A DNA stretch of 37,437 bases, taken from contig RDXH01000006.1 in the NCBI GenBank assembly GCA_004292745.1, forward strand, positions 1 through 37,437, written 5' to 3'. Made by a program: the position numbers and the translations under genes. Position 1 is the first letter of the stretch, and every line of letters begins with the position of its first letter. The notes beneath the pieces are model-generated. The model saw only the letters and a program-made list of their open reading frames with translations, ran no database searches and was not told where the DNA came from. The DNA comes from Oscillatoriales cyanobacterium. Its GTDB lineage: Bacteria; Cyanobacteriota; Cyanobacteriia; Cyanobacteriales; Microcoleaceae. Below, piece after piece: positions 3,321 through 29,479 of the stretch.

Positions 3321-6300
3321 TTAATTCAAAGGCAGCGCGATCGCAAATTCCGTCCCTTCACCCACCACCGAATCACAACTCAGCTTACCAGCGTGGGTTT
3401 CTTCCACAATTTGCCGGCTGATAGACAACCCCAACCCCGTACCCTTTCCAACACCTTTAGTCGTGAATAAATGGTCAAATATTTTCGACTTGATCTCCAG
3501 CGACATCCCTTGACCATTATCTTTGATTTTAATCACCACACTCTGGTTATCCTCAGAGACATGAGTCATAATCGCGATCGTATTCGGTAAAGCCTCAATC
3601 TCATCATAAGTCCGGTCTTGATTCGATTCCTCAAAACAGTCGATCGCATTTGCCAACAAATTCATAAAAACCTGATTCAGTTGCCCAAAATAACATTTAA
3701 CTGGCGGAATATATCCGTACTCCTTAATAATTTTAATCGCAGGGCGAGTATCTTTAGCCTTCAGGCGATACTGCAAAATCAGCAAAGTGCTATCGATACC
3801 CTCATGAATATTTGCTGACACCTTAGTCGCACTATCAGCACGGGAAAAAGTACGGAGAGACGTGCTAATATTACGGATACGATCTGTACCAGATTTCATC
3901 GATAAAAGCATTTTCGGCAAATCTTCCATCAAATATTCTAAATCAATATCCGATGCTTTATCCTCTAATTCATCTCCACAATTCGGAAATTTTTCCTGGT
4001 AAAGATGCAAATAATCAATCAAATCCAAGCTAGCCTCAGCAGCAGCATCAACATTACCAGAAATAAAACCGAGCGGATTGTTAATTTCGTGAGCCACCCC
4101 TGCAATCAAGTTGCCCAAAGCAGACATCTTTTCGCTTTGAATTAGTTGTAATTGTGCCTGTTGCAGTTCATTTAATGATTTTTCTAACTGTTGAGATTTC
4201 TCTTGCTCCCGCGCGTATAAAACAGCATTTTCTACCGCAATAGCAACTTGAGAAACCAATACTTTGAATACTTCAACCCTCTCCGCTGTAAAAGCTCCTA
4301 CCGTCAAAGCATTTTCTAGATAAATAATTCCCCGCCGCTGAGATTGATAAATAATCGGCAAACATAGGATTGATTTTGGTTGATATTTCTGAATGTAAGC
4401 ATCCGCATTAAAAGGTGCGGTGACAGTCGCATTGTCTAAAACCAAAGGCTTTTGAGTGCGCTGTACATAATTGATTACAGAAAGCGGTACATCTTGATAA
4501 TTTTCTACTGGAATAGACGGTGAAAGAGTCTCTTGAGTCTGAGCAGAAGTACCCATAGCTTCTATACAGAGGATATCATTTTTCAGCAACATCACTACTA
4601 CTTTTTGAGCCGCCGCATTTTCTAACAAAATATTGATCAACTTAGTCAATAACTTATCGAGTACAATTTCACTGGTAATAGCTTGAGAAGCTTTGACAAA
4701 AGCGCTCAAATCTAAGAAATTGCCTAAACTATTACTCGTCGTATTTCCAGTGGTAGTGCGGGTAACATCGAGGCTTCGGGTTTCTGCGGTGCGGGTTTGT
4801 GTTACCAAGAAAGGATGTATAGACTCTAAGTGTTTAACTTTCGCTATAGCTCCCCAGTGGATGTAGCCGTAATATGCTTTAGTTAGATATGCTTGAGAAA
4901 TTATTTGTTTCCCCAGAGATAGATAGAATTCTCCGGCTAATTCATAGGCTAATGCTTCCTCTTGAATATAACCGTTTTTGGCAGAACCTGCAATTGCGCG
5001 ATCGTACAAATCCATCGCTTGGCTATCATACCCCAAAACTCGCGCTTGTTCCGCTGCTACCAAGTCGTACTTGTGTTGATAATTCATCGGAGCATGAAAA
5101 GCCCATTTTTTCATCTTTTTTTGGAGCTGCTCAACTTTTTTCAAAAATTGCTTTTGCTCCTTTTTACTAGCTTCTGGATACAAAGCAAGCAGGCTGAGAG
5201 AGTAGTATAATTTATTGACAGCAATCACATAAAATCCGGCTGCAACATCTTCATGTTTCTCAAATAACCTGGAATTTTCTACGGCTTGGACATAGTTTCC
5301 GAATGTGAAGTTCAGCATTGTCTTGGCATTATACGCCAAAATAACTAAAAGAAATATTTTATATTCTATCAAAATGGGAAGCGTTTTGAACTCATTAAAG
5401 CTGTCGCCGACTAAATAGCATGGATCTACTGATTTCCCGCGCAAATTGATCGCTGTTTGTCTCTCTATACTGATATAATCAGAGCAACCTTCTTGTTTAA
5501 TTTTTTGCAGTAGTTTTATATATTTACCTGTCTCCTCTTCAACCAAATCGAGAGACTCTCCCGCCCACAGTTTATAAGAGCAATATATACATAGAGAATA
5601 ACCCGCATATTCTAACTCTCCACTTTCCATGCCGATTTTAAAACCTTCCATGAGATAGCCTAATCCTGACTTAAGTTCGGCTTTCTGGTGTGCTATCAAA
5701 AAACTAAAGACTTCATAAACTCTACTTTTGATCGAACCGAATGGAAATTTATCTAGCAGCCTAATTGCCAGTTGACCGAATTGGTATCCCAAATTAATAT
5801 TCCCTAGCCTGCATAGCACTACGCCATAATAAACGTAGCCGACACTAGAATAAGGGGAATTGCCATATTCCAGGCACAGCTTGACCATCGTAAATGCCAG
5901 CAGCGGTACCAGTTGGGGCTTGATATGAAAAGCAGTGCCGAGAATCCCTGATAAAATTCGCATGGCTGCTTGTCGATTGAGATCGGTCATTTCTGGCAAG
6001 TTAGCTAAATCGTCAATTCGCTTAATTCCCAAGCTCAGTTTTGTGTCGATCGTTCCTACCATAGTGTTTAGCGAGTTGGGATTTTCAGGAAAAGAAATAC
6101 CTAACAGTTTCAGCACTTTCAGTCCTATACTTAGTGCTTCGACAAGTTTGCTATCTTGAACATTATAAGACTGGATTTGAACTTCATAAGCATTTACTTT
6201 TTCTAATATAGTTTTGGCTCGATTCAGGATGATATCGACTAATTCTTTTGATTTTTCATGGTTAATATTTAAGTATTCAGTTTCTGCTCTTGACTCGTAA

Positions 6301-8867
6301 ATTGCTAACGTTAAGTCATACTGACTTTCCCAACAATCCGCTGGTAATAATCCCATAGCAACCCGCAAATATCTAACAGCAGCTTCATAAGCATTAGCCG
6401 CTTTTGCCTTACGTCCCGCAGTTAAATTTAATCGTGCCAAATCAATTTTTTCTGCCTGCTGGCTAATCGTATCAATTCCGACATTCAATTGATTGACAAT
6501 ATCAAAAATGTTTTCTTCGAGCTTTTCTGCTGGAGTATTCTGTAACAGTAATTGACCTATTTTTAAATGGGTTGATTGCTTTTGGTCTTCGGGAATTAGC
6601 GAATAGGCGGCTTGCTGGACGCGATCGTGCAAAAATCTGTAACTAACCCGCGAGGTATCTAATTTCAGATTAATTGATTCCGATTTGTCGAAAACTAAAG
6701 GAATGCGATAAGCATCACTTAAAGGCAGAATCAACCCTGCTTGCAAAGCAGAATCCAGTTCAGTGGCTGTAGTATTAGCTGACGCTTCGCTAACAAGTGA
6801 AATCACATCAAGAGCGAATTTATCGCCCACACAAGCTGCTAATTTTAATACTTCTTGCGTGGCTGCGGGGAGCTTTTCAATCCGACTGGCTACCAGTTCC
6901 ACCACACTTTTATCGGTGATGCCAATGGCTTGAATTTCATCGATACTCCAATTCCATCCCCCTTTACCTTCCAGGGGACTAAAGTCAAATTTCAAAAGAT
7001 TGTCTTGATAAAGTGCTTGGAGTAGCTGCGTCAAGAAAAAAGGATTACCGCCTGTTTTATTGCAGATCAACTCTGCTAGATTTTTTACTTTTTCGGTGCT
7101 GTTGTTAAGTGCTTCAGCGACTAACTCAGTCACGTTTTCTAAATCCAGCGGTTGCAGCACAATATTGTTAACAACCGTACCCGTTTTTTCAATCTCTTCT
7201 ACAGTTTGAATTAAAGGGTGAGTCGGACTAACTTCGTTATCTCGATAAGCACCGATTAGCAACAAATATTGCTGGTCAGGGTCAGCGATCAGTGTTTGCA
7301 TTAACTTTAAGGTTGCTGAATCTGCCCACTGCAAATCGTCTAAAAAAATCACTAGCGGGTGTTCTTTTTGGGCGAAGACGCGAATAAATTCTTTGAATAC
7401 CCGATTGAATCGATTTTGCGATTCTACAGGGCCTAGTTCTGGTACTTCCGGCTGTTTGCCAACTATCAATTCAACTTCTGGAATTACATCGGCAATTACT
7501 TTACCATCTGTTCCTAAAGCTGTTAAAATTTTAGTATGCCATGTTTCTATAGCAGCAGCACTTTCAGTTAGCAACTGGCGTAGCAGCGAGTTAAATGCTT
7601 GGATTAATGATGCGTAGGGAATATTGCGTTTTAATTGGTCGAATTTGCCACTGATGAAGTAACCTTTTGAGCGAGTAATTGGCTTGCTAACTTCATTGAC
7701 AACTGCTGATTTGCCGATACCAGAATAACCCGAAACTAGCATCAATTCGCTTTGGGAATGGGCCGGTTTTTCTGTATAGCAACCGCCAATGTGGTTAGGA
7801 TACTTCCGGTCACTGAGCGTAGTCGAAGTGGGCATTTCGACTACGCTCAATGACCAAAGAGCCTTGGCGACTGCTGTATTTTGGTTGGGCGGCAATAAAG
7901 ATTCGGCTGAATGTGTCCCTACACGTTCAAATGCTGCTAATAGTTCGTTGACTTGTTGTTCTCTACCGTACAATTTTTGAGGAATTAATAACTGACTGAG
8001 AATATCTAAGCGTCCGGGAGTAAAGTCTGAAATTTGGTTGTTTGTGTCTAACTGATGCAAGCAAATTTCTAAATCTGCCAATAATCCGGCCGCACTTTGA
8101 TATCTGTGTTCGGCATTTTTGGACATCAATTTCATCACTATTTCTGAGATGATTTGGGGAATTTCAGGATTAATTTGATGTGGTGAAATTGCTTGAAATG
8201 CGATGTGGCTATAAACTATTTCTAAGGGATCACTACTGGCGAAAGGCAATGTACCTGTTAGCATTTCATACAAGCTAATTCCGAGGGAATAAAAGTCGGT
8301 GCGGTAGTCGAGGGTGCGATTCATTCTCCCGGTTTGTTCGGGTGACATATAGGCTAATGTGCCTTCGACGGAGTTGGGATTGTTAAATTGGGGGTTTTCT
8401 TTGTTGAGTTTTGTCGCAATACCGAAGTCTGTAAGTTTGACTTGCTTTGTTTGGGAGTTGATGATGATGTTGCTGGGCTTGATATCTTTGTGAATAATCT
8501 GATTTTGGTGGAGGTATTCTAGGGCTTTAGTAATTTGGATGGCAATGTTTAAAATTGCTTGTGGAGTCAATGTCTCTGTTTCCAGCAGTTTTCCGAGAGA
8601 TTCCCCACCAAAATCTTCTAAAACCAGTCCTAATCGGTGTTCAAAGCTTTGGATACTGATGGTTTTGACGATTTGTTCGCTATCTAAATTCTGGCGGATT
8701 TGATATTCGTGTTTGAGGCGGGTAATTGCTTCGAGTGTCGGATATTCGGCTTTCAGAAGTTTAAGAATTGTTACGGATTGGTTTATCAACGTTTGGCCGC
8801 GATAGATAATTGTTTCGATGCCTTCATGGAGAGTAGAATTTATTTGGTATTCTGAAAGGCTTAGCAT
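3321..8867 (-). CDS. Giant hybrid signalling protein: Ser/Thr kinase - AAA-type ATPase - GAF - histidine kinase
   Basis: A 1848-residue sensor of a family common in filamentous cyanobacteria. Domains in order: an N-terminal eukaryotic-type kinase (about 8-270) with HKDIKPSN near residue 126, DFG and GTLAYMSPEQ; a PknK/MalT-like AAA ATPase with Walker A SGYSGIGKS (about 380) and Walker B VIFLDDLQWAD (about 505-513); a long helical, TPR-like middle (about 820-1380); a GAF domain (about 1405-1550); a coiled coil; and a histidine kinase with H-box AGVAHEINNP (about 1588-1597), N-box NQVFMNLLANAID, DNGQGMS and GLGLSISRQIVEE. It has no receiver domain or membrane segment, so it is probably soluble and signals to a separate regulator. 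The glycine-rich loop is poorly conserved. A repeat has inserted in frame in the kinase-ATPase linker (7774-7879). The input signal is unknown. Confidence 0.93.
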   Translation of the reverse strand: MLSLSEYQINSTLHEGIETIIYRGQTLINQSVTILKLLKAEYPTLEAITRLKHEYQIRQNLDSEQIVKTISIQSFEHRLGLVLEDFGGESLGKLLETETLTPQAILNIAIQITKALEYLHQNQIIHKDIKPSNIIINSQTKQVKLTDFGIATKLNKENPQFNNPNSVEGTLAYMSPEQTGRMNRTLDYRTDFYSLGISLYEMLTGTLPFASSDPLEIVYSHIAFQAISPHQINPEIPQIISEIVMKLMSKNAEHRYQSAAGLLADLEICLHQLDTNNQISDFTPGRLDILSQLLIPQKLYGREQQVNELLAAFERVGTHSAESLLPPNQNTAVAKALWSLSVVEMPTSTTLSDRKYPNHIGGCYTEKPAHSQSELMLVSGYSGIGKSAVVNEVSKPITRSKGYFISGKFDQLKRNIPYASLIQAFNSLLRQLLTESAAAIETWHTKILTALGTDGKVIADVIPEVELIVGKQPEVPELGPVESQNRFNRVFKEFIRVFAQKEHPLVIFLDDLQWADSATLKLMQTLIADPDQQYLLLIGAYRDNEVSPTHPLIQTVEEIEKTGTVVNNIVLQPLDLENVTELVAEALNNSTEKVKNLAELICNKTGGNPFFLTQLLQALYQDNLLKFDFSPLEGKGGWNWSIDEIQAIGITDKSVVELVASRIEKLPAATQEVLKLAACVGDKFALDVISLVSEASANTTATELDSALQAGLILPLSDAYRIPLVFDKSESINLKLDTSRVSYRFLHDRVQQAAYSLIPEDQKQSTHLKIGQLLLQNTPAEKLEENIFDIVNQLNVGIDTISQQAEKIDLARLNLTAGRKAKAANAYEAAVRYLRVAMGLLPADCWESQYDLTLAIYESRAETEYLNINHEKSKELVDIILNRAKTILEKVNAYEVQIQSYNVQDSKLVEALSIGLKVLKLLGISFPENPNSLNTMVGTIDTKLSLGIKRIDDLANLPEMTDLNRQAAMRILSGILGTAFHIKPQLVPLLAFTMVKLCLEYGNSPYSSVGYVYYGVVLCRLGNINLGYQFGQLAIRLLDKFPFGSIKSRVYEVFSFLIAHQKAELKSGLGYLMEGFKIGMESGELEYAGYSLCIYCSYKLWAGESLDLVEEETGKYIKLLQKIKQEGCSDYISIERQTAINLRGKSVDPCYLVGDSFNEFKTLPILIEYKIFLLVILAYNAKTMLNFTFGNYVQAVENSRLFEKHEDVAAGFYVIAVNKLYYSLSLLALYPEASKKEQKQFLKKVEQLQKKMKKWAFHAPMNYQHKYDLVAAEQARVLGYDSQAMDLYDRAIAGSAKNGYIQEEALAYELAGEFYLSLGKQIISQAYLTKAYYGYIHWGAIAKVKHLESIHPFLVTQTRTAETRSLDVTRTTTGNTTSNSLGNFLDLSAFVKASQAITSEIVLDKLLTKLINILLENAAAQKVVVMLLKNDILCIEAMGTSAQTQETLSPSIPVENYQDVPLSVINYVQRTQKPLVLDNATVTAPFNADAYIQKYQPKSILCLPIIYQSQRRGIIYLENALTVGAFTAERVEVFKVLVSQVAIAVENAVLYAREQEKSQQLEKSLNELQQAQLQLIQSEKMSALGNLIAGVAHEINNPLGFISGNVDAAAEASLDLIDYLHLYQEKFPNCGDELEDKASDIDLEYLMEDLPKMLLSMKSGTDRIRNISTSLRTFSRADSATKVSANIHEGIDSTLLILQYRLKAKDTRPAIKIIKEYGYIPPVKCYFGQLNQVFMNLLANAIDCFEESNQDRTYDEIEALPNTIAIMTHVSEDNQSVVIKIKDNGQGMSLEIKSKIFDHLFTTKGVGKGTGLGLSISRQIVEETHAGKLSCDSVVGEGTEFAIALPLN
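7774..7879. repeat. Palindromic repeat inserted in frame within the giant kinase gene
   Basis: The unit begins TATAGCAACCGCCAA and ends TTGGCGACTGCTGTA, roughly inverted ends. Its centre has TTGAGCGTAGTCGAAA-like arms facing each other (ACTGAGCGTAGTCGAAG and TTTCGACTACGCTCAAT). It adds about 35 residues, including MPTSTTLSDRKYPNHIG, just before the Walker A segment without breaking the frame. Related intergenic sequence is at 3199-3263, and the core also occurs at 9028-9060. Confidence 0.7.
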
Positions 8868-23415: not shown

Positions 23416-23682
23416 GTGGAAGTTAGTTTTAGTTCGGCTTTCAAACGCGCCTTCAAAAAGCGCATCCAAGGCAACACAGATTTAGAGGAAAAGTTTTGGC
23501 AAAAATTGGAACTGTTTACTATATATCCTTACGATCCGATATTGAAAACACATAAACTATCCGGCAAGCTTAAGGAATTCTGGAGTTTTAGTGTAGATTA
23601 CGATGAAAGGGTATTGTTCTACTTTACAGAAGATGACAAGGCTGTGTTTGTAGATATTGGTAGTCATGATGAAGTGTATTAA
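23416..23682 (+). CDS. RelE/ParE-superfamily toxin
   Basis: An 88-residue toxin-like protein starting with GTG at 23416, two bases after the antitoxin stop, with GAGGAA upstream. The pattern HKLSGKLKEFWSFSVDYDERVLFYF...AVFVDIGSHDEVY is the RelE/YafQ-type fold: a beta sheet with conserved His near KTHKLSG, an Arg in DERVLFYF, and the terminal GSHDEVY. Such proteins cleave mRNA at the ribosome. The fold is secure; the activity (mRNA cleavage versus gyrase inhibition) is inferred. The solitary methyltransferase gene follows by 18 bases. Confidence 0.8.
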   Translation: MEVSFSSAFKRAFKKRIQGNTDLEEKFWQKLELFTIYPYDPILKTHKLSGKLKEFWSFSVDYDERVLFYFTEDDKAVFVDIGSHDEVY

Positions 23683-23700
23683 CTATTCGACTAACATATC

Positions 23701-24621
23701 ATGGGCTCTAAGAGTAACTTGGCAAAAATGAGAACAGTAGATTTATTTGCAGGCTGTGGAGGCTTATCACTCGGATTTCAAAATGCTGGATTCAATGTAG
23801 TAGCAGCTTTTGACTACTGGCTTCCAGCTATTCAAGTATATAAAGACAACTTCCAACATCCGATATTTGAGAAAGACCTATCACAACCAGATATCTGTTC
23901 ATTTATCAGTGATTTCAATCCAGATATAATCATTGGTGGGCCTCCATGCCAAGATTTTTCCAGTGCCGGCAAAAGAGATGAAAATCTTGGGAGAGCAGAT
24001 TTATCCTTAGCCTTTGCCAAGATTGTTACTAGCATTAAGCCTAGATGGTTTGTCATGGAGAATGTTGCCAGAATTCAAAAGAGCCAAATTCTAGAACAAG
24101 TTTTAGAAACATTTAGAACCAGTGGCTATGGTTTAAGTTATTCAGTTTTGAATGCCAGCTATTGTGGAGTTCCACAAGCTAGAAAACGATACTTTTTGAT
24201 TGGTCAATTGGATGGAGAAGATGGCATTTTGAATTCTTATCTAACAAAACATCAGTCTAAAACTCCTATGAATGTTTTTGAATATTTAGGTGATGATTTA
24301 GGCATTGAGTATTTTTATCGGCATCCGAGAAGCTATAAGAGAAGGGCAGTTTTCAGCATCCACGAACCTAGTCCGACAGTTCGAGGTGTGAATCGTCCAA
24401 TTCCCAAGACATACAAGAAGCATGAAGGTGATTTATGCGATATTGACGAAAGGTTACGCCCTTTGACGACTATTGAACGAAGCTATATTCAAACATTTCC
24501 TAAGACGTTTAAGTTTAAGGGAAATAAGTCTGATTTAGAACAAATGATTGGTAATGCTGTTCCTGTCAAGCTGGCTGAGTATGTCGCTGGCTGCATCCTT
24601 GAATATATTCAACAGGACTAA
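23701..24621 (+). CDS. DNA (cytosine-5-)-methyltransferase, apparently solitary
   Basis: A 306-residue C5 methyltransferase. Motif I DLFAGCGGLSLGF (14-26), motif IV GGPPCQDFSSAGKR with catalytic Cys83, motif VI ENV (Glu120), motif VIII QARKRYFLIG (from 159), a short variable region (about 175-245), motif IX RPLTTIERSYIQTFP and motif X QMIGNAVP are all present, so it should be active. The recognition site cannot be read from sequence. No restriction endonuclease gene is beside it. The start may be ATG 23701 or, nine codons later, ATG 23728 (MRTVDLFAG). It follows a toxin-antitoxin pair by 18 bases, and is visibly more AT-rich than the housekeeping genes, which suggests transfer. Confidence 0.93.
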   Translation: MGSKSNLAKMRTVDLFAGCGGLSLGFQNAGFNVVAAFDYWLPAIQVYKDNFQHPIFEKDLSQPDICSFISDFNPDIIIGGPPCQDFSSAGKRDENLGRADLSLAFAKIVTSIKPRWFVMENVARIQKSQILEQVLETFRTSGYGLSYSVLNASYCGVPQARKRYFLIGQLDGEDGILNSYLTKHQSKTPMNVFEYLGDDLGIEYFYRHPRSYKRRAVFSIHEPSPTVRGVNRPIPKTYKKHEGDLCDIDERLRPLTTIERSYIQTFPKTFKFKGNKSDLEQMIGNAVPVKLAEYVAGCILEYIQQD

Positions 24622-25242: not shown

Positions 25243-26511
25243 TTACTTTGGCAAAGGCTCCAATATTTTCTCACCACCCCTAGCCGTAACCACCGTAAAC
25301 AAAGCCTCATAATGATTTAAAGCTTCCTCAAATCCATAATTCTCAACAGCATAACTTCTACCTTGCAAACCCAGGGCTTCCAACTTAGCCGGATTCAAAT
25401 ACAAATCCTCAACCCCATCAGCTAGAGCTTGCGGATCTTCCGGTGTCACCACCACCCCGCCACCACTTTGCTGCACAGCTTTATGAGCAGTCCCAGTCTC
25501 AGGAACCGAAGCCAAAATAGCCCTGCCACTCGCCAACAGCACTTGAATTTTTGAAGGCATATTAAAATTAGTCACCCGACGCTTTTGTACCACCAAACTA
25601 ACATCAGCCGCAGCTAGCATTTCTGGCAATTTTTCTCGCGGTTCAAAGGGCAGTAACATGACATTAGTCGCTTTGTAAGTTTCGCAATCTCTTTGCAAAC
25701 GTGCCAGTGCTGTGGATTCTCCCACAATTACAAAAGCGATTTCTGGTATGTGTTTCAAACGAGCCGCTGCTTGAACAACAGTTTGCAAACCTTGAGTCAG
25801 AGCAATATTGCCCGCGTAGAGAATGACAAATTTGCCCTGGAGATTGTGAGTTTTGCGAAAGGAATTATTGTCTTTGGGTAAGGGACGGATGAAATTGACA
25901 TCAACCCAATTGGGAAGGCAAACTATTTTTTCCGGGGGTACTCCCTGAGAGTGCAATTTTTGGACAAAACCGCTGTCGATGACGCTGACTTGGCTCGCAG
26001 TGCTGTAGGCAAATTTTTCTAAGGCGTCAGCAATCTGAATTAACATCCCATTCTTTTTTACCAAACCGACGCGCACGGCTGCTTCTGAGACGATATCCTG
26101 AACGTTGAGGACGATCGGGCAACCGCGAATCCACCCGTAGAGAGCCACTGGGACGCAAATCGGCAATGGGGGCATTGTGGAGAAAATCACGTCGGGTCGA
26201 TCGCCCCTAAACGCTTGAACAGCACTAGAAATCACAAAACTACCATCTAACAGCAGTCTGTCTAGCAAACTGGGATGAGGGCCATTCACCCGCAGGTAGC
26301 TGCGCTGTATTGTCACACCGTTATGTTCTTCGGTAAGGTAGAATTTGCCGCGATATTTTTCATAAATCTGGCGCTGGGGATAGTTGGGCATTCCTGTAAC
26401 TACTCTGACTTGATGACCACGCTGAACTAGACCCTGGGCTAGTTCTGTCATCAGGGGAGCAATGCCGATCGGCTCTGGATAGTAGTTATAGGAATAAATC
26501 AGAATACGCAT
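25243..26511 (-). CDS. WcaI-type glycosyltransferase (GT4 family)
   Basis: A 422-residue GT-B glycosyltransferase. MRILIYSYNYYPEPIGIAP and PNYPQRQIYEKYRGK at the N-terminus are typical of the WcaI branch (colanic acid and related exopolysaccharides). The C-terminal Rossmann half has LYAGNIALTQGLQTVVQAA, VIVGESTALARL, and a donor site region NMPSKIQVLLASGRAILASVPETGTAHKAV. It adds a sugar to a lipid-linked repeat unit at the inner face of the membrane; donor and acceptor are unknown. It follows the RsbW-like and STAS-sugar transferase genes on -, supporting a polysaccharide function. Confidence 0.88.
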   Translation of the reverse strand: MRILIYSYNYYPEPIGIAPLMTELAQGLVQRGHQVRVVTGMPNYPQRQIYEKYRGKFYLTEEHNGVTIQRSYLRVNGPHPSLLDRLLLDGSFVISSAVQAFRGDRPDVIFSTMPPLPICVPVALYGWIRGCPIVLNVQDIVSEAAVRVGLVKKNGMLIQIADALEKFAYSTASQVSVIDSGFVQKLHSQGVPPEKIVCLPNWVDVNFIRPLPKDNNSFRKTHNLQGKFVILYAGNIALTQGLQTVVQAAARLKHIPEIAFVIVGESTALARLQRDCETYKATNVMLLPFEPREKLPEMLAAADVSLVVQKRRVTNFNMPSKIQVLLASGRAILASVPETGTAHKAVQQSGGGVVVTPEDPQALADGVEDLYLNPAKLEALGLQGRSYAVENYGFEEALNHYEALFTVVTARGGEKILEPLPK

Positions 26512-26671: not shown

Positions 26672-27109
26672 TCAGGTAATGTTTTTTCGCATCACTAGAC
26701 AGTTGCGGCGATCGTCTGTACGGATATAACGAAGCTGCTGTGTCAGCTTGTGTATAAATAGCAGTCCCCTTTCTCCTTCTTTTTCCAAGGGATCGCGCTT
26801 GTCTTGGATAATAGCGTCGAGCTTTGCTTCTAGGTCAAAGGGTTGACCCCTATCCCAAATCCTGATTTCTAAGTAATTGGGAAAAATAGTTACTTCAAGG
26901 TCGATCGGTGTCGTGGAGTGCAAGTTTTTGTGAGCATGGCGAACAGCATTTGTAAACCCTTCATTCACAATCAGGCTGCACTGCCACCCCAAATCCTCTG
27001 GTAGCAGGGGCAGGACAATATTTTCCAACCACTCCAAAACTTGTTTCAGAGCCTCCATGTCCGTTTCCACTTGAAGATGCAATTGGGCCTTTGGTTGCTG
27101 ATCTTTCAT
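26672..27109 (-). CDS. RsbW/SpoIIAB-like HATPase (anti-sigma factor type kinase)
   Basis: A 145-residue stand-alone GHKL ATPase of the HATPase_c_2 type. N-box NEGFTNAVRHAH (49-60), G1 box WDRGQPFD (85-92) and a G2-like GERGLLFI (112-119) are visible; the first glycine of G2 is altered (GE rather than GG). Such kinases phosphorylate a Ser in a STAS-domain partner and otherwise bind a sigma factor or other target. The next gene upstream, on the same strand, encodes a STAS domain fused to a sugar transferase, an obvious candidate partner. GGGGGA lies upstream of the ATG. It is separated from that gene by about 500 bases in which I see no gene. Confidence 0.85.
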   Translation of the reverse strand: MKDQQPKAQLHLQVETDMEALKQVLEWLENIVLPLLPEDLGWQCSLIVNEGFTNAVRHAHKNLHSTTPIDLEVTIFPNYLEIRIWDRGQPFDLEAKLDAIIQDKRDPLEKEGERGLLFIHKLTQQLRYIRTDDRRNCLVMRKNIT

Positions 27110-27557
27110 TTTTTTTCCCCCTGGTCGCCCCCCAGCACAACTTCAGCTACGATCAATACCAACTCAGTACAAGTAAATGTACTCAGCTTGGCTGCGACGC
27201 AAATGTTCAGCGTAGCGGTGGCGGTAGAATAAGGGGGGCAAGGTCTTGGCAACATATTAGTTAAGTCAAGCTTGAGCTGAAGAAGCCCGTTTTGCCTCAA
27301 GGTGAGCATTCCTTTCGCACCATTTACTCCTACTGGAAATGAGAGACTTTTGATACTTTAACCCGCCTGGGTAAGGCGTTTAAATAATTTTCAGTTTTGA
27401 GTTAGGAGTTTTGATTTTTCAACTGCTTTAGAAAACTTAGCAAAACCTATCCAAAGTTATCTTTAGATGGTAAATGTTTACTTCCGTTGTTTATTGACGT
27501 GATTAGTTAAAATTTTATTGATTTCTTTCATCACTTATGATAGAGCGCCTGAATTTT

Positions 27558-27597
27558 ACAAACCCCCGCTGTACCAAAAAGGTCAGCAGAGGGTTGT
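27558..27597 (-). terminator. Imperfect hairpin after the STAS-sugar transferase gene
   Basis: ACAAACCCCCGCTG and CAGCAGAGGGTTGT pair at 11 of 14 positions around about 12 bases, starting 10 bases past the stop of the gene on -. It is a possible terminator. The rest of 27110-27557 holds only small palindromes and nothing gene-like. Confidence 0.3.
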
Positions 27598-27606
27598 TCA
27601 GGCATC

Positions 27607-28614
27607 CTATACAGCGCCACTATTTTTGTTGAACAGAACAGTTATGGTTTTCACAATTAGTTTCAGGTCATACATCAGGCTCCAGTTTTCTTGGTACTTT
27701 AAATCCAAGCGGATCACATCTTCAAAATTACGCACTTGAGAGCGACCGTTAACTTGCCATTCTCCAGTCATTCCTGGTTTGACATCAAAACGCTGCCACT
27801 GAGGTACTTCATAGCGGTCAACTTCATCTGGAGTAGGGGGTCGGGTACCCACTAGACTCATTTCGCCTTTTAGTACATTCCAAAATTGTGGCAGTTCATC
27901 AAGGCTGGTTTTTCGCAATATCCGCCCGACTTTGGTAATGCGGGGGTCATTGTCATTTTTGAAAAAAGCGCCGGACGCTTGGTTTTTGATTTGAGATTTA
28001 AGGGCTTCGGCGTTGGTACACATCGAGCGAAACTTCCAAATCTGAAATCTTTTTCCCATCCAGCCACAGCGGGTTTGAGCAAAAAAGATCGGGCCTGGAT
28101 CGTTAATTGTGATGGCTGCGACTATGGGTATAAACAATATTCCTGTAATTATCAAACCTACTATGGCCCCAACGATGTCTATCAGCCGTTTTACCAACGA
28201 TCGCACAGAGGGGTGCGTAACTGGTAACTGACTGTCTGCACGGTTGTTTTCAGCGGGGGCTGTGCTAACTGGCGACGGCTCGATAGTCAGCACTTGATCT
28301 AGGCTGGTGAGAGCAAATACTGCCATCACCTGCGGCTTGAGACTCCGCAATACTAAGTCGCACTGCCGCTGTTTGGCAAATTTTAGATTGCTGACTAAGG
28401 CACCAATCCCGCTACTGTCGATGAATGTCGTGTCACTGAAGTCTAGGACAATTTTGCTGGGAACGGTGTTTTTCGAGTTTTCAGAGAAAAGTTGCTGGCA
28501 GGTTGTCTTAAAGTTTACGGCTTCAAGTACGCTTAAGCGCACAGGTATGTGAACGGAAGGAATTTCGTCCAAGTAAGTTACCCGAAAATCTGCCTCTGGG
28601 TTTTGGGTGACCAT
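27607..28614 (-). CDS. STAS domain - polyprenyl-phosphate sugar-1-phosphate transferase fusion
   Basis: A 335-residue fusion. Residues about 12-108 are an anti-sigma-antagonist-type STAS domain: [20 protein letters not shown] carries the Asp-Ser-Ser-Gly motif (Ser67/Ser68 are the likely phosphosites). A linker follows, then a WbaP/PglC-type sugar transferase (about 138-335): [19 protein letters not shown] membrane segment, [31 protein letters not shown] and [14 protein letters not shown]. The enzyme half loads the first sugar phosphate onto undecaprenyl phosphate to start a polysaccharide. The usual N-terminal membrane helices of WbaP-like enzymes are replaced by the STAS domain. The next gene on this strand encodes an RsbW-like kinase, so activity may be set by phosphorylation. 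Both domains are secure; the control is inferred. Confidence 0.9.
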
Positions 28615-28810: not shown

Positions 28811-29479
28811 TCACGAATTGTAAACGTTTTCTGACTGGGAAGTTTCGCGGCCCACCGGTTTAACCTTGGCTTTAGCTTTAGCTGCGTTGCGTTTTAGGGC
28901 TTGGAGACGGGCTTCGTATTTAGCGCGCTGCTGCTTTTTGGAAGTTTGCTCGATCAGGGTTTTTAAGGCACTACCGAGGCTTTTGTATGCGTTGGGGAGA
29001 GTATAGCCGAAGCGAGTCGCCAGGGCCAGGGCTTTTTCGTCCGCGTCTATGGCTTCTTTTAAGCTTTTCTCTCCGTTATTTTTCTGGTACAGCCTCCAGC
29101 CGGAGACGCCACACAGGGAGAGGGCTAGTACCAGCAGCAAGCCATCTTGTACCCAAAGTTCGCCGACAGCGCCACCTAAACCTATAGCGAGGGCGGCCAT
29201 TTCCCAGCCATCTCTGGGGATGGTGTCGTTTTGGATTCTGGCGACTTCGTGCCAAAATAGGAGGTTTCGCTGATCCATTGCTAGCTGTTCCCAGCGGATC
29301 AGGTCTATTTGTATTTCTACCTGATCTTTGCCTATTTCTTCGCTACGGATCAAGGCAGGATTAATTTCTATGGTTTTTTCTACTGTTACCCAACTTTGTA
29401 GTTCTGGGGGGAGTATATTTTTCAAGCGCCGGATCTCACTCATCTCGGCTCTTGCTGTGGAGGTTGCATAGGATGTCAT
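28811..29479 (-). CDS. DUF3318-like cyanobacterial membrane protein
   Basis: A 222-residue protein of a cyanobacteria-specific type (resembling DUF3318). The hydrophilic first half (SEIRRLKNILPPELQSWVTVE, then IQIDLIRWEQLAMDQRNLLFWHEVARIQ) includes HEVARI, which looks like a degenerate metalloprotease helix. Two membrane helices lie at about 93-108 and 112-130, followed by a Lys/Ala-rich coiled tail (NAAKAKAKVKP). Function is unknown. It precedes the STAS-sugar transferase gene by 196 bases on the same strand, but such genes also occur alone, so the link is weak. Confidence 0.65.
   Translation of the reverse strand: MTSYATSTARAEMSEIRRLKNILPPELQSWVTVEKTIEINPALIRSEEIGKDQVEIQIDLIRWEQLAMDQRNLLFWHEVARIQNDTIPRDGWEMAALAIGLGGAVGELWVQDGLLLVLALSLCGVSGWRLYQKNNGEKSLKEAIDADEKALALATRFGYTLPNAYKSLGSALKTLIEQTSKKQQRAKYEARLQALKRNAAKAKAKVKPVGRETSQSENVYNS

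Follow-up and report, generated by a model that had tools for sequence, protein, structure and literature searches.

A STAS-fused priming sugar transferase and an RsbW-like kinase encoded side by side in cyanobacteria: a putative partner-switching pair acting on an enzyme

Introduction

Partner switching has been described mainly as a means of freeing sigma factors. We wanted to investigate whether a gene pair of a cyanobacterium may use the same kind of module to control an enzyme. The pair lies in a stretch of 37,437 nucleotides of Oscillatoriales cyanobacterium (assembly GCA_004292745.1, contig RDXH01000006.1, positions 1 to 37,437 of the forward strand), which we call the window. In it, a gene for a priming sugar transferase fused to a STAS domain is followed by a gene for an RsbW-like kinase. 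An earlier note proposed that the kinase directly phosphorylates the enzyme and so switches undecaprenyl-sugar synthesis on or off without a transcription step, with a PP2C phosphatase as the missing third member. We followed this up by comparing the pair with its relatives in other genomes and with published systems.

Results

The fusion gene (27607..28614, minus strand) starts with ATG and encodes 335 residues. Pfam assigned STAS to residues 34-114 (5.6e-14) and Bac_transf to residues 142-328 (4e-67). We modelled the whole protein with AlphaFold2 from 80 sequences (mean pLDDT 83, pTM 0.67); given this pTM, we draw no inference on how the two halves lie to each other. Foldseek with the model matched the STAS fold to TM1442 (6.5e-7), SpoIIAA (3.9e-6) and RsbV (2.1e-5), and the transferase fold to PglC (2.5e-14). 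The earlier reading of the protein as a STAS-transferase fusion was therefore borne out by both domains and folds. The STAS half (residues 1-118; 28261..28614, minus strand) matched TM1442 and SpoIIAA by sequence as well, these being its nearest solved relatives, and the limits first proposed for the domain, 12-108, lie near the modelled strands and helices (approximately 11-102). The transferase half matched WbaP (8t53) at 6e-40. Its PglC/WbaP-like catalytic part (27607..28191, minus strand), with a single long helix at residues 140-171, carries a D239-E240 pair that was invariant in an alignment of 81 fusions and that we take to be the Asp-Glu catalytic dyad of small phosphoglycosyl transferases. 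The Bac_transf fold together with this pair places the fusion, a priming enzyme, in that class. Full-length WbaP carries an N-terminal multi-span membrane domain, whereas the window fusion has a STAS domain before helix 140-171 instead. This order, STAS followed by Bac_transf, is that of the all4160/XssP-type STAS-PGT fusions.

The gene that follows the fusion on this strand (26672..27109, minus) encodes a HATPase_c_2 serine kinase of 145 residues (Pfam, 7.1e-23), as had been claimed, although it begins 497 bp away. It resembles RsbW and SpoIIAB: a profile built from 10 kinases matched solved RsbW (6m36, 1.8e-11) and SpoIIAB (1til, 1.4e-4). E50 and N54, presumably the Glu and Asn of the N-box, are present. 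Across 42 distinct fusion-adjacent kinases, E50, N54, G88 and G115 were found in all 42 and D86 in 41, and we take the conserved glycines to belong to the G1 and G2 boxes. Because of the gap of 497 bp, co-transcription of the two genes is not obvious in the window genome. A scan of this gap found no promoter- or terminator-like site on the minus strand, and regional counts of such sites were at chance level. In relatives, the fusion and kinase genes often abut or overlap.

The surroundings, judged by Pfam, are of a polysaccharide type. A glycosyltransferase gene, presumably WcaI-like, lies downstream (25243..26511, minus strand), and upstream of the fusion there are a DUF3318 gene (28811..29479, minus strand), which served as a synteny marker, and genes for DUF2079, polysaccharide deacetylase and GT2 proteins. 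Among the matches listed, the closest named one for the fusion was from Microcoleus sp. EPA2 (98% identity). Elsewhere in the window we observed a gene for a protein of 1848 residues (3321-8867, minus strand) combining Ser/Thr kinase, AAA ATPase, GAF and histidine kinase domains, and a YafQ-like toxin gene with a C5 cytosine methyltransferase gene directly downstream (23416-24621, plus strand).

The DSSG motif of the fusion (residues 66-69) aligns with the DSSG of SpoIIAA. Its first serine, Ser67 (codon AGT, 28414..28416, minus strand), is the presumed phospho-acceptor; we take it to be equivalent to SpoIIAA Ser58, and in the model it starts a helix of residues 67-82. Ser67 was kept in 134 of 134 fusions. 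At the other motif positions the following residue was Cys in two fusions, Gly was replaced by Ala in one and Asp by Lys in one. In the 81-row alignment including XssP of Synechocystis, Ser67 was the sole invariant column of the STAS part; without XssP (80 rows), G71 was invariant as well. In XssP the motif reads DSAA, the serine being kept and the rest of the motif lost. Since a simple pattern also found DSSG in 14 of 19 distinct stand-alone STAS proteins, the conservation of Ser67 alone is not specific; it supports phosphorylation of this residue without proving it. Two Okeania copies (L033:5581-6579 and L037:8001-9005) have DSCG in place of DSSG, no adjoining kinase, and window-like neighbours upstream and downstream.

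We then asked how often fusion and kinase genes occur together. The relatives search returned at least 80 loci, with a fusion in 44 of the 80 best matches listed. When 388 genomes of the class were searched with a profile, 258 genomes among the matches listed reached 1e-90 or less, plain transferases included. Our set of 134 fusions consisted of those 44, of 30 search loci (one of them, L121, the window itself) and of 60 loci with flanks, mostly one per genus. A kinase gene on the same strand within 600 bp downstream was present for 43 of the 134 fusions, counting rows that are not independent, as the set includes near relatives and a duplicate genome (L066 = L194). Two loci (L030, L221) have less than 200 bp downstream, so that 43/132 is the fair figure. 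A kinase on the opposite strand at 50 bp (L199) was scored as unpaired, and L194 was dropped from the list of pairs as a duplicate of L066. In the genus set, pairing was found in 28 of 72 genera and 13 of 22 families; its 32 gaps included 23 of -32 to +20 bp, and in 13 of the 32 the genes overlapped.

As a control we used plain Bac_transf genes. None of 38 such genes in loci L073-L108 had a kinase alongside. In a wider control including the loci of the kinase search, two of 42 did (L148, L170), and there the fusion before the kinase was cut short close to the start of the contig or divided between two reading frames. Adjacency to the kinase in other cyanobacteria, which the first proposal had asked to be looked for, was found for this part of the fusions. 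Chance neighbourhood of the two genes was ruled out by the 0/38 control together with the single kinase lineage described below, and we consider it very probable that kinase and STAS half form a functional pair.

Several loci showed other arrangements of the same parts. At L170:435-1965 the STAS and transferase parts lie in overlapping open reading frames of different frame before the kinase, which may be a natural split or an assembly frameshift. In two of the 36 loci L073-L108 (L083:7385-8624, L090:7878-9013) the fusion occurs in split form, as a stand-alone STAS gene with a plain Bac_transf gene immediately after it on that strand. At L278:7553-9422 a stand-alone STAS gene, matching the fusion-STAS profile at 5e-36, lies 14 bp upstream of a fusion with its kinase, so that STAS units stand in tandem.

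The kinases next to fusions belong to one lineage. In a tree of 91 kinases all 44 fusion-adjacent ones, copies of the window locus among them, fell in one clade of 51 rows (support 95/82); as the tree was midpoint-rooted, the clade is strictly one side of a branch, in a tree whose bootstrap is not fully settled, which has some long end branches, and whose sample is skewed to fusion loci. Two of the seven other rows are L148 and L170, with their truncated or split fusions in front, and five come from genomes that carry a fusion: the second kinase of L059, the opposite-strand neighbour of a fusion in L199, L156 (G198) and L253 (G387), where the fusion sits elsewhere in the genome, and L009 (contig C167 of the window genome). 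All 23 kinases with a PP2C gene but no fusion alongside were outside the clade. We also observed a tandem kinase pair behind a single fusion (L059:8989-10182). The second kinase of the window genome on contig C167 (L274:4043-4741), which groups with the fusion-side kinases, has an N-terminal extension of approximately 100 residues; in its surroundings of 12.5 kb we found no match to STAS, Bac_transf or PP2C.

The kinases diverge more in step with the STAS half than with the enzyme. In 42 distinct pairs, the correlation of kinase distances was 0.79 with those of the STAS half and 0.71 with those of the transferase. The partial correlation was 0.55 for kinase and STAS given the transferase and 0.29 for kinase and transferase given STAS; both exceeded all of 2000 permutations, in a partial Mantel test that does not wholly remove shared ancestry.

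We wanted to see whether a PP2C phosphatase accompanies the pair. Among distinct fusions flanked on both sides by 3.5 kb or more, a PP2C (SpoIIE) gene lay within 4 kb of 10 of 40 paired fusions and of none of 58 unpaired ones (Fisher 6e-5, rows not independent; L054, L055 and L062, being near relatives, amount to roughly a single event, and L184 and L197, from one genus, likewise). In L054, L055 and L062 the order is operon-like, with fusion, kinase and PP2C on one strand, the kinase and PP2C genes overlapping by 4 bp, and the PP2C bearing PAS domains. In L184, L190, L197, L200, L202 and L280 the PP2C bears a response-regulator domain, and in L176 SpoIIE alone was found. The window itself contains no PP2C that we could find; the one weak match (2e-4) was to the protein of 1848 residues, in which Pfam lists no SpoIIE. 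The predicted third member is seen near the pair in relatives and not in the window.

Outside the window, the same genome has six SpoIIE-domain matches. One of them, on contig C72, combines a response regulator with SpoIIE, lies beside STAS and kinase genes, and was the best match in this genome for seven of seven fusion-side PP2Cs (50-61% identity; next best approximately 22-28%). On these similarities, it is the likeliest candidate for the phosphatase of the window pair in this genome. Fusion-side PP2Cs resemble those found with other kinases, and the fusion is not necessarily their target, or may not be the only one. As for sigma factors, none of nine matches in the genome was on the window contig (C70), and by eye no sigma-factor look-alike was seen among the clustered neighbours listed for fusion loci.

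Many fusions stand without an adjacent kinase. There was no same-strand kinase within 600 bp for 89 of 132 evaluable fusions, and their serine is nevertheless kept, so the switch either works in trans or has been lost there. One of the outcomes that the earlier note had named as speaking against its reading, genomes with the fusion but without any such kinase and with an unconserved serine, was found in part: an adjacent kinase is often lacking, but the serine is conserved, even in XssP. In a quick tree, unpaired fusions formed clades of 29 rows (several families, support 88) and of 22 rows (support 99); the named members of the latter are Nostocales, and the clade sits among paired fusions. 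Downstream of unpaired fusions no clear kinase relic was found in 90 stretches (best E 0.021), apart from L194, which duplicates the L066 pair, and L199, with its intact kinase on the opposite strand.

The neighbours of these copies are often those of the window. Of 104 fusion loci, 35 have the DUF3318 gene upstream; a kinase adjoins the fusion in 9 of these and not in the other 26. The glycosyltransferase lies downstream in 12 of the 104, and 11 of the 12 lack an adjacent kinase. The named unpaired loci with window-like neighbours were mostly from Nostocales, with two from Okeania. Because of these common neighbours, the window gene and the unpaired copies look like syntenic orthologues of which only one has the kinase. 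In four genomes of one family (f6), an unpaired fusion of the window type occurs together with a second fusion that has both kinase and PP2C (genomes G107, G129, G225 and G252; second fusions L197, L184, L200 and L202). At least one profile-matching kinase was present in each of 19 genomes picked for an unpaired fusion, so control in trans is possible. We also observed a fusion in the gammaproteobacterium Rhabdochromatium marinum (L065:7818-8960), beside a glycosyltransferase; no profile-matching kinase was found in that locus.

HmpU is a PP2C phosphatase. In Nostoc punctiforme it belongs, with the STAS output HmpV and the kinase HmpW, to a system controlling hormogonia, which is similar in its parts to the proposed window module. 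HmpV is a separate STAS protein, whereas the window STAS is fused. The downstream effector of HmpV is described as undefined (PMC6495340). Kinases with a PP2C directly in front, taken as HmpW-like by gene order, are far from the fusion-side clade.

STAS-transferase fusions as such are already in print. According to a review (PMC8256260, which cites Wang et al. 2007), the glycosyltransferase all4160 of Anabaena bears a STAS domain at its N-terminus, and another paper lists all4160 among the genes that heterocyst envelope polysaccharide requires (PMC4390870). Its domain order is that of the window fusion. The all4160-type copies of Nostocales, unlike the window pair, have no adjoining kinase, and all4160 itself presumably belongs to the unpaired Nostocales clade. 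Unpaired Nostocales fusions (L034, L053, L056) have DUF3318 upstream and the glycosyltransferase downstream, as in the window. XssP is reported as the priming glycosyltransferase of synechan; when it was deleted, blooms no longer formed and EPS was suppressed (PMC8205485). A plasmid search found a sugar transferase on pSYSM which, by its place, should be XssP. It is a STAS-Bac_transf fusion like that of the window (57% identity over 283 aligned positions); it differs in its DSAA motif and in that its stretch of 14.8 kb holds no profile-matching kinase. Term searches of two synechan papers (PMC8205485, PMC13125312) did not turn up any reference to a STAS or anti-sigma domain of XssP, and in the open-licence literature we found no paper linking a kinase to a STAS-fused transferase.

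Two characterized kinases are also comparable. In Vibrio fischeri, SypE phosphorylates a serine of the STAS protein SypA, and unphosphorylated SypA promotes biofilm through an unknown target (PMC8256260, PMC10120452, PMC4517449). SypA is a free STAS protein and SypE is kinase and phosphatase in one, whereas the window STAS is joined to an enzyme. The Synechocystis RsbW-type kinase Slr1861 phosphorylates the STAS protein Ssr1600 in vitro and controls SigC (PMC12329169). The STAS serines involved, S59/S60, and the partner switch resemble what is seen or proposed for the window pair; the output is a sigma factor, unlike in our proposal.

Discussion

We propose, with a probability of approximately 0.6, that fusion and kinase form a partner-switching module with an enzyme instead of a sigma factor as its output, in which kinase and STAS half together would control the transferase. 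The kinase would bind the unphosphorylated STAS half and phosphorylate Ser67, and a PP2C phosphatase would take the phosphate off again. Since enzyme and STAS half are one protein, this cycle would set the loading of the first sugar onto undecaprenyl phosphate. We predict that the unphosphorylated form is on and the phosphorylated or kinase-bound form off; this sign is taken by analogy from SypA/SypE and HmpV. The reading offered before our analysis is partly supported, by the adjacency of the genes, the one kinase lineage, the serine kept in every fusion, a correlation between kinase and STAS half beyond that with the enzyme half, and the PP2C genes near the pair in relatives.

Control could also run in the reverse direction, the fusion being a membrane-tethered anti-sigma antagonist and the kinase an anti-sigma factor, so that the STAS half, through the transferase, would report polysaccharide initiation or the state of the lipid carrier to transcription. 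Such kinases do bind sigma factors, and Slr1861 is described as an anti-SigC factor (PMC12329169); PP2C-linked kinases are the nearest rows outside the fusion-side clade, and several fusion-kinase pairs adjoin a PP2C and a stand-alone STAS gene. We find this direction unlikely, as the sigma-factor matches lie off the window contig, the clustered neighbours listed for fusion loci include no look-alike seen by eye, and fusion to an enzyme would be explained merely as an anchor or a sensor. Coupling in both directions seems to us quite unlikely. Here one kinase would serve the fusion and also a sigma factor or other STAS proteins, the pair being a node of a cyanobacterial RsbW/STAS network (a cluster of the icfG type) in which the enzyme is titrated with other outputs. 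It is favoured by the L190 and L280 pairs, which lie beside STAS and PP2C genes (L190 adding a second kinase of another lineage), by Slr1861, which phosphorylates several STAS proteins (PMC12329169), and by the unpaired fusions, which retain the serine, together with the profile-matching kinases present in all 19 genomes picked for one. The clustering of fusion-side kinases, and their divergence in step with the STAS half, argue instead for a dedicated pair.

The STAS half might, finally, be structural, acting in oligomerisation or in docking on other glycosyltransferases, with the serine as a helix cap and the kinase as inherited baggage. Many fusions do lack a neighbouring kinase, and STAS domains often have a serine in this position. 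We nevertheless regard such a role as very improbable, since a single kinase lineage accompanies the fusion over 13 families, often with overlapping reading frames, and since intact kinase residues and a co-occurring PP2C are not expected of baggage.

In summary, we return to the module with an enzyme as its output. Taken further, it may represent an old cyanobacterial class of partner switching on an enzyme, in which a kinase and a signal-fed PP2C, with PAS or response-regulator domains, would together control how far a transferase-fused STAS domain is phosphorylated. The targets of SypA and HmpV might then be priming transferases, and L083 and L090 a two-piece version of the device; we consider the chances of this wider reading to be even. 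If it is true, polysaccharide synthesis would be controlled post-translationally at its first committed step. Should the output of the window pair indeed be a priming transferase, production of a slime, sheath or bloom polysaccharide could be started or stopped without new transcription, at the step which commits undecaprenyl phosphate, and SypA and HmpV would gain a candidate class of targets. It would also give a handle on the synthesis of heterocyst envelope and of synechan, both of which involve STAS-fused transferases.
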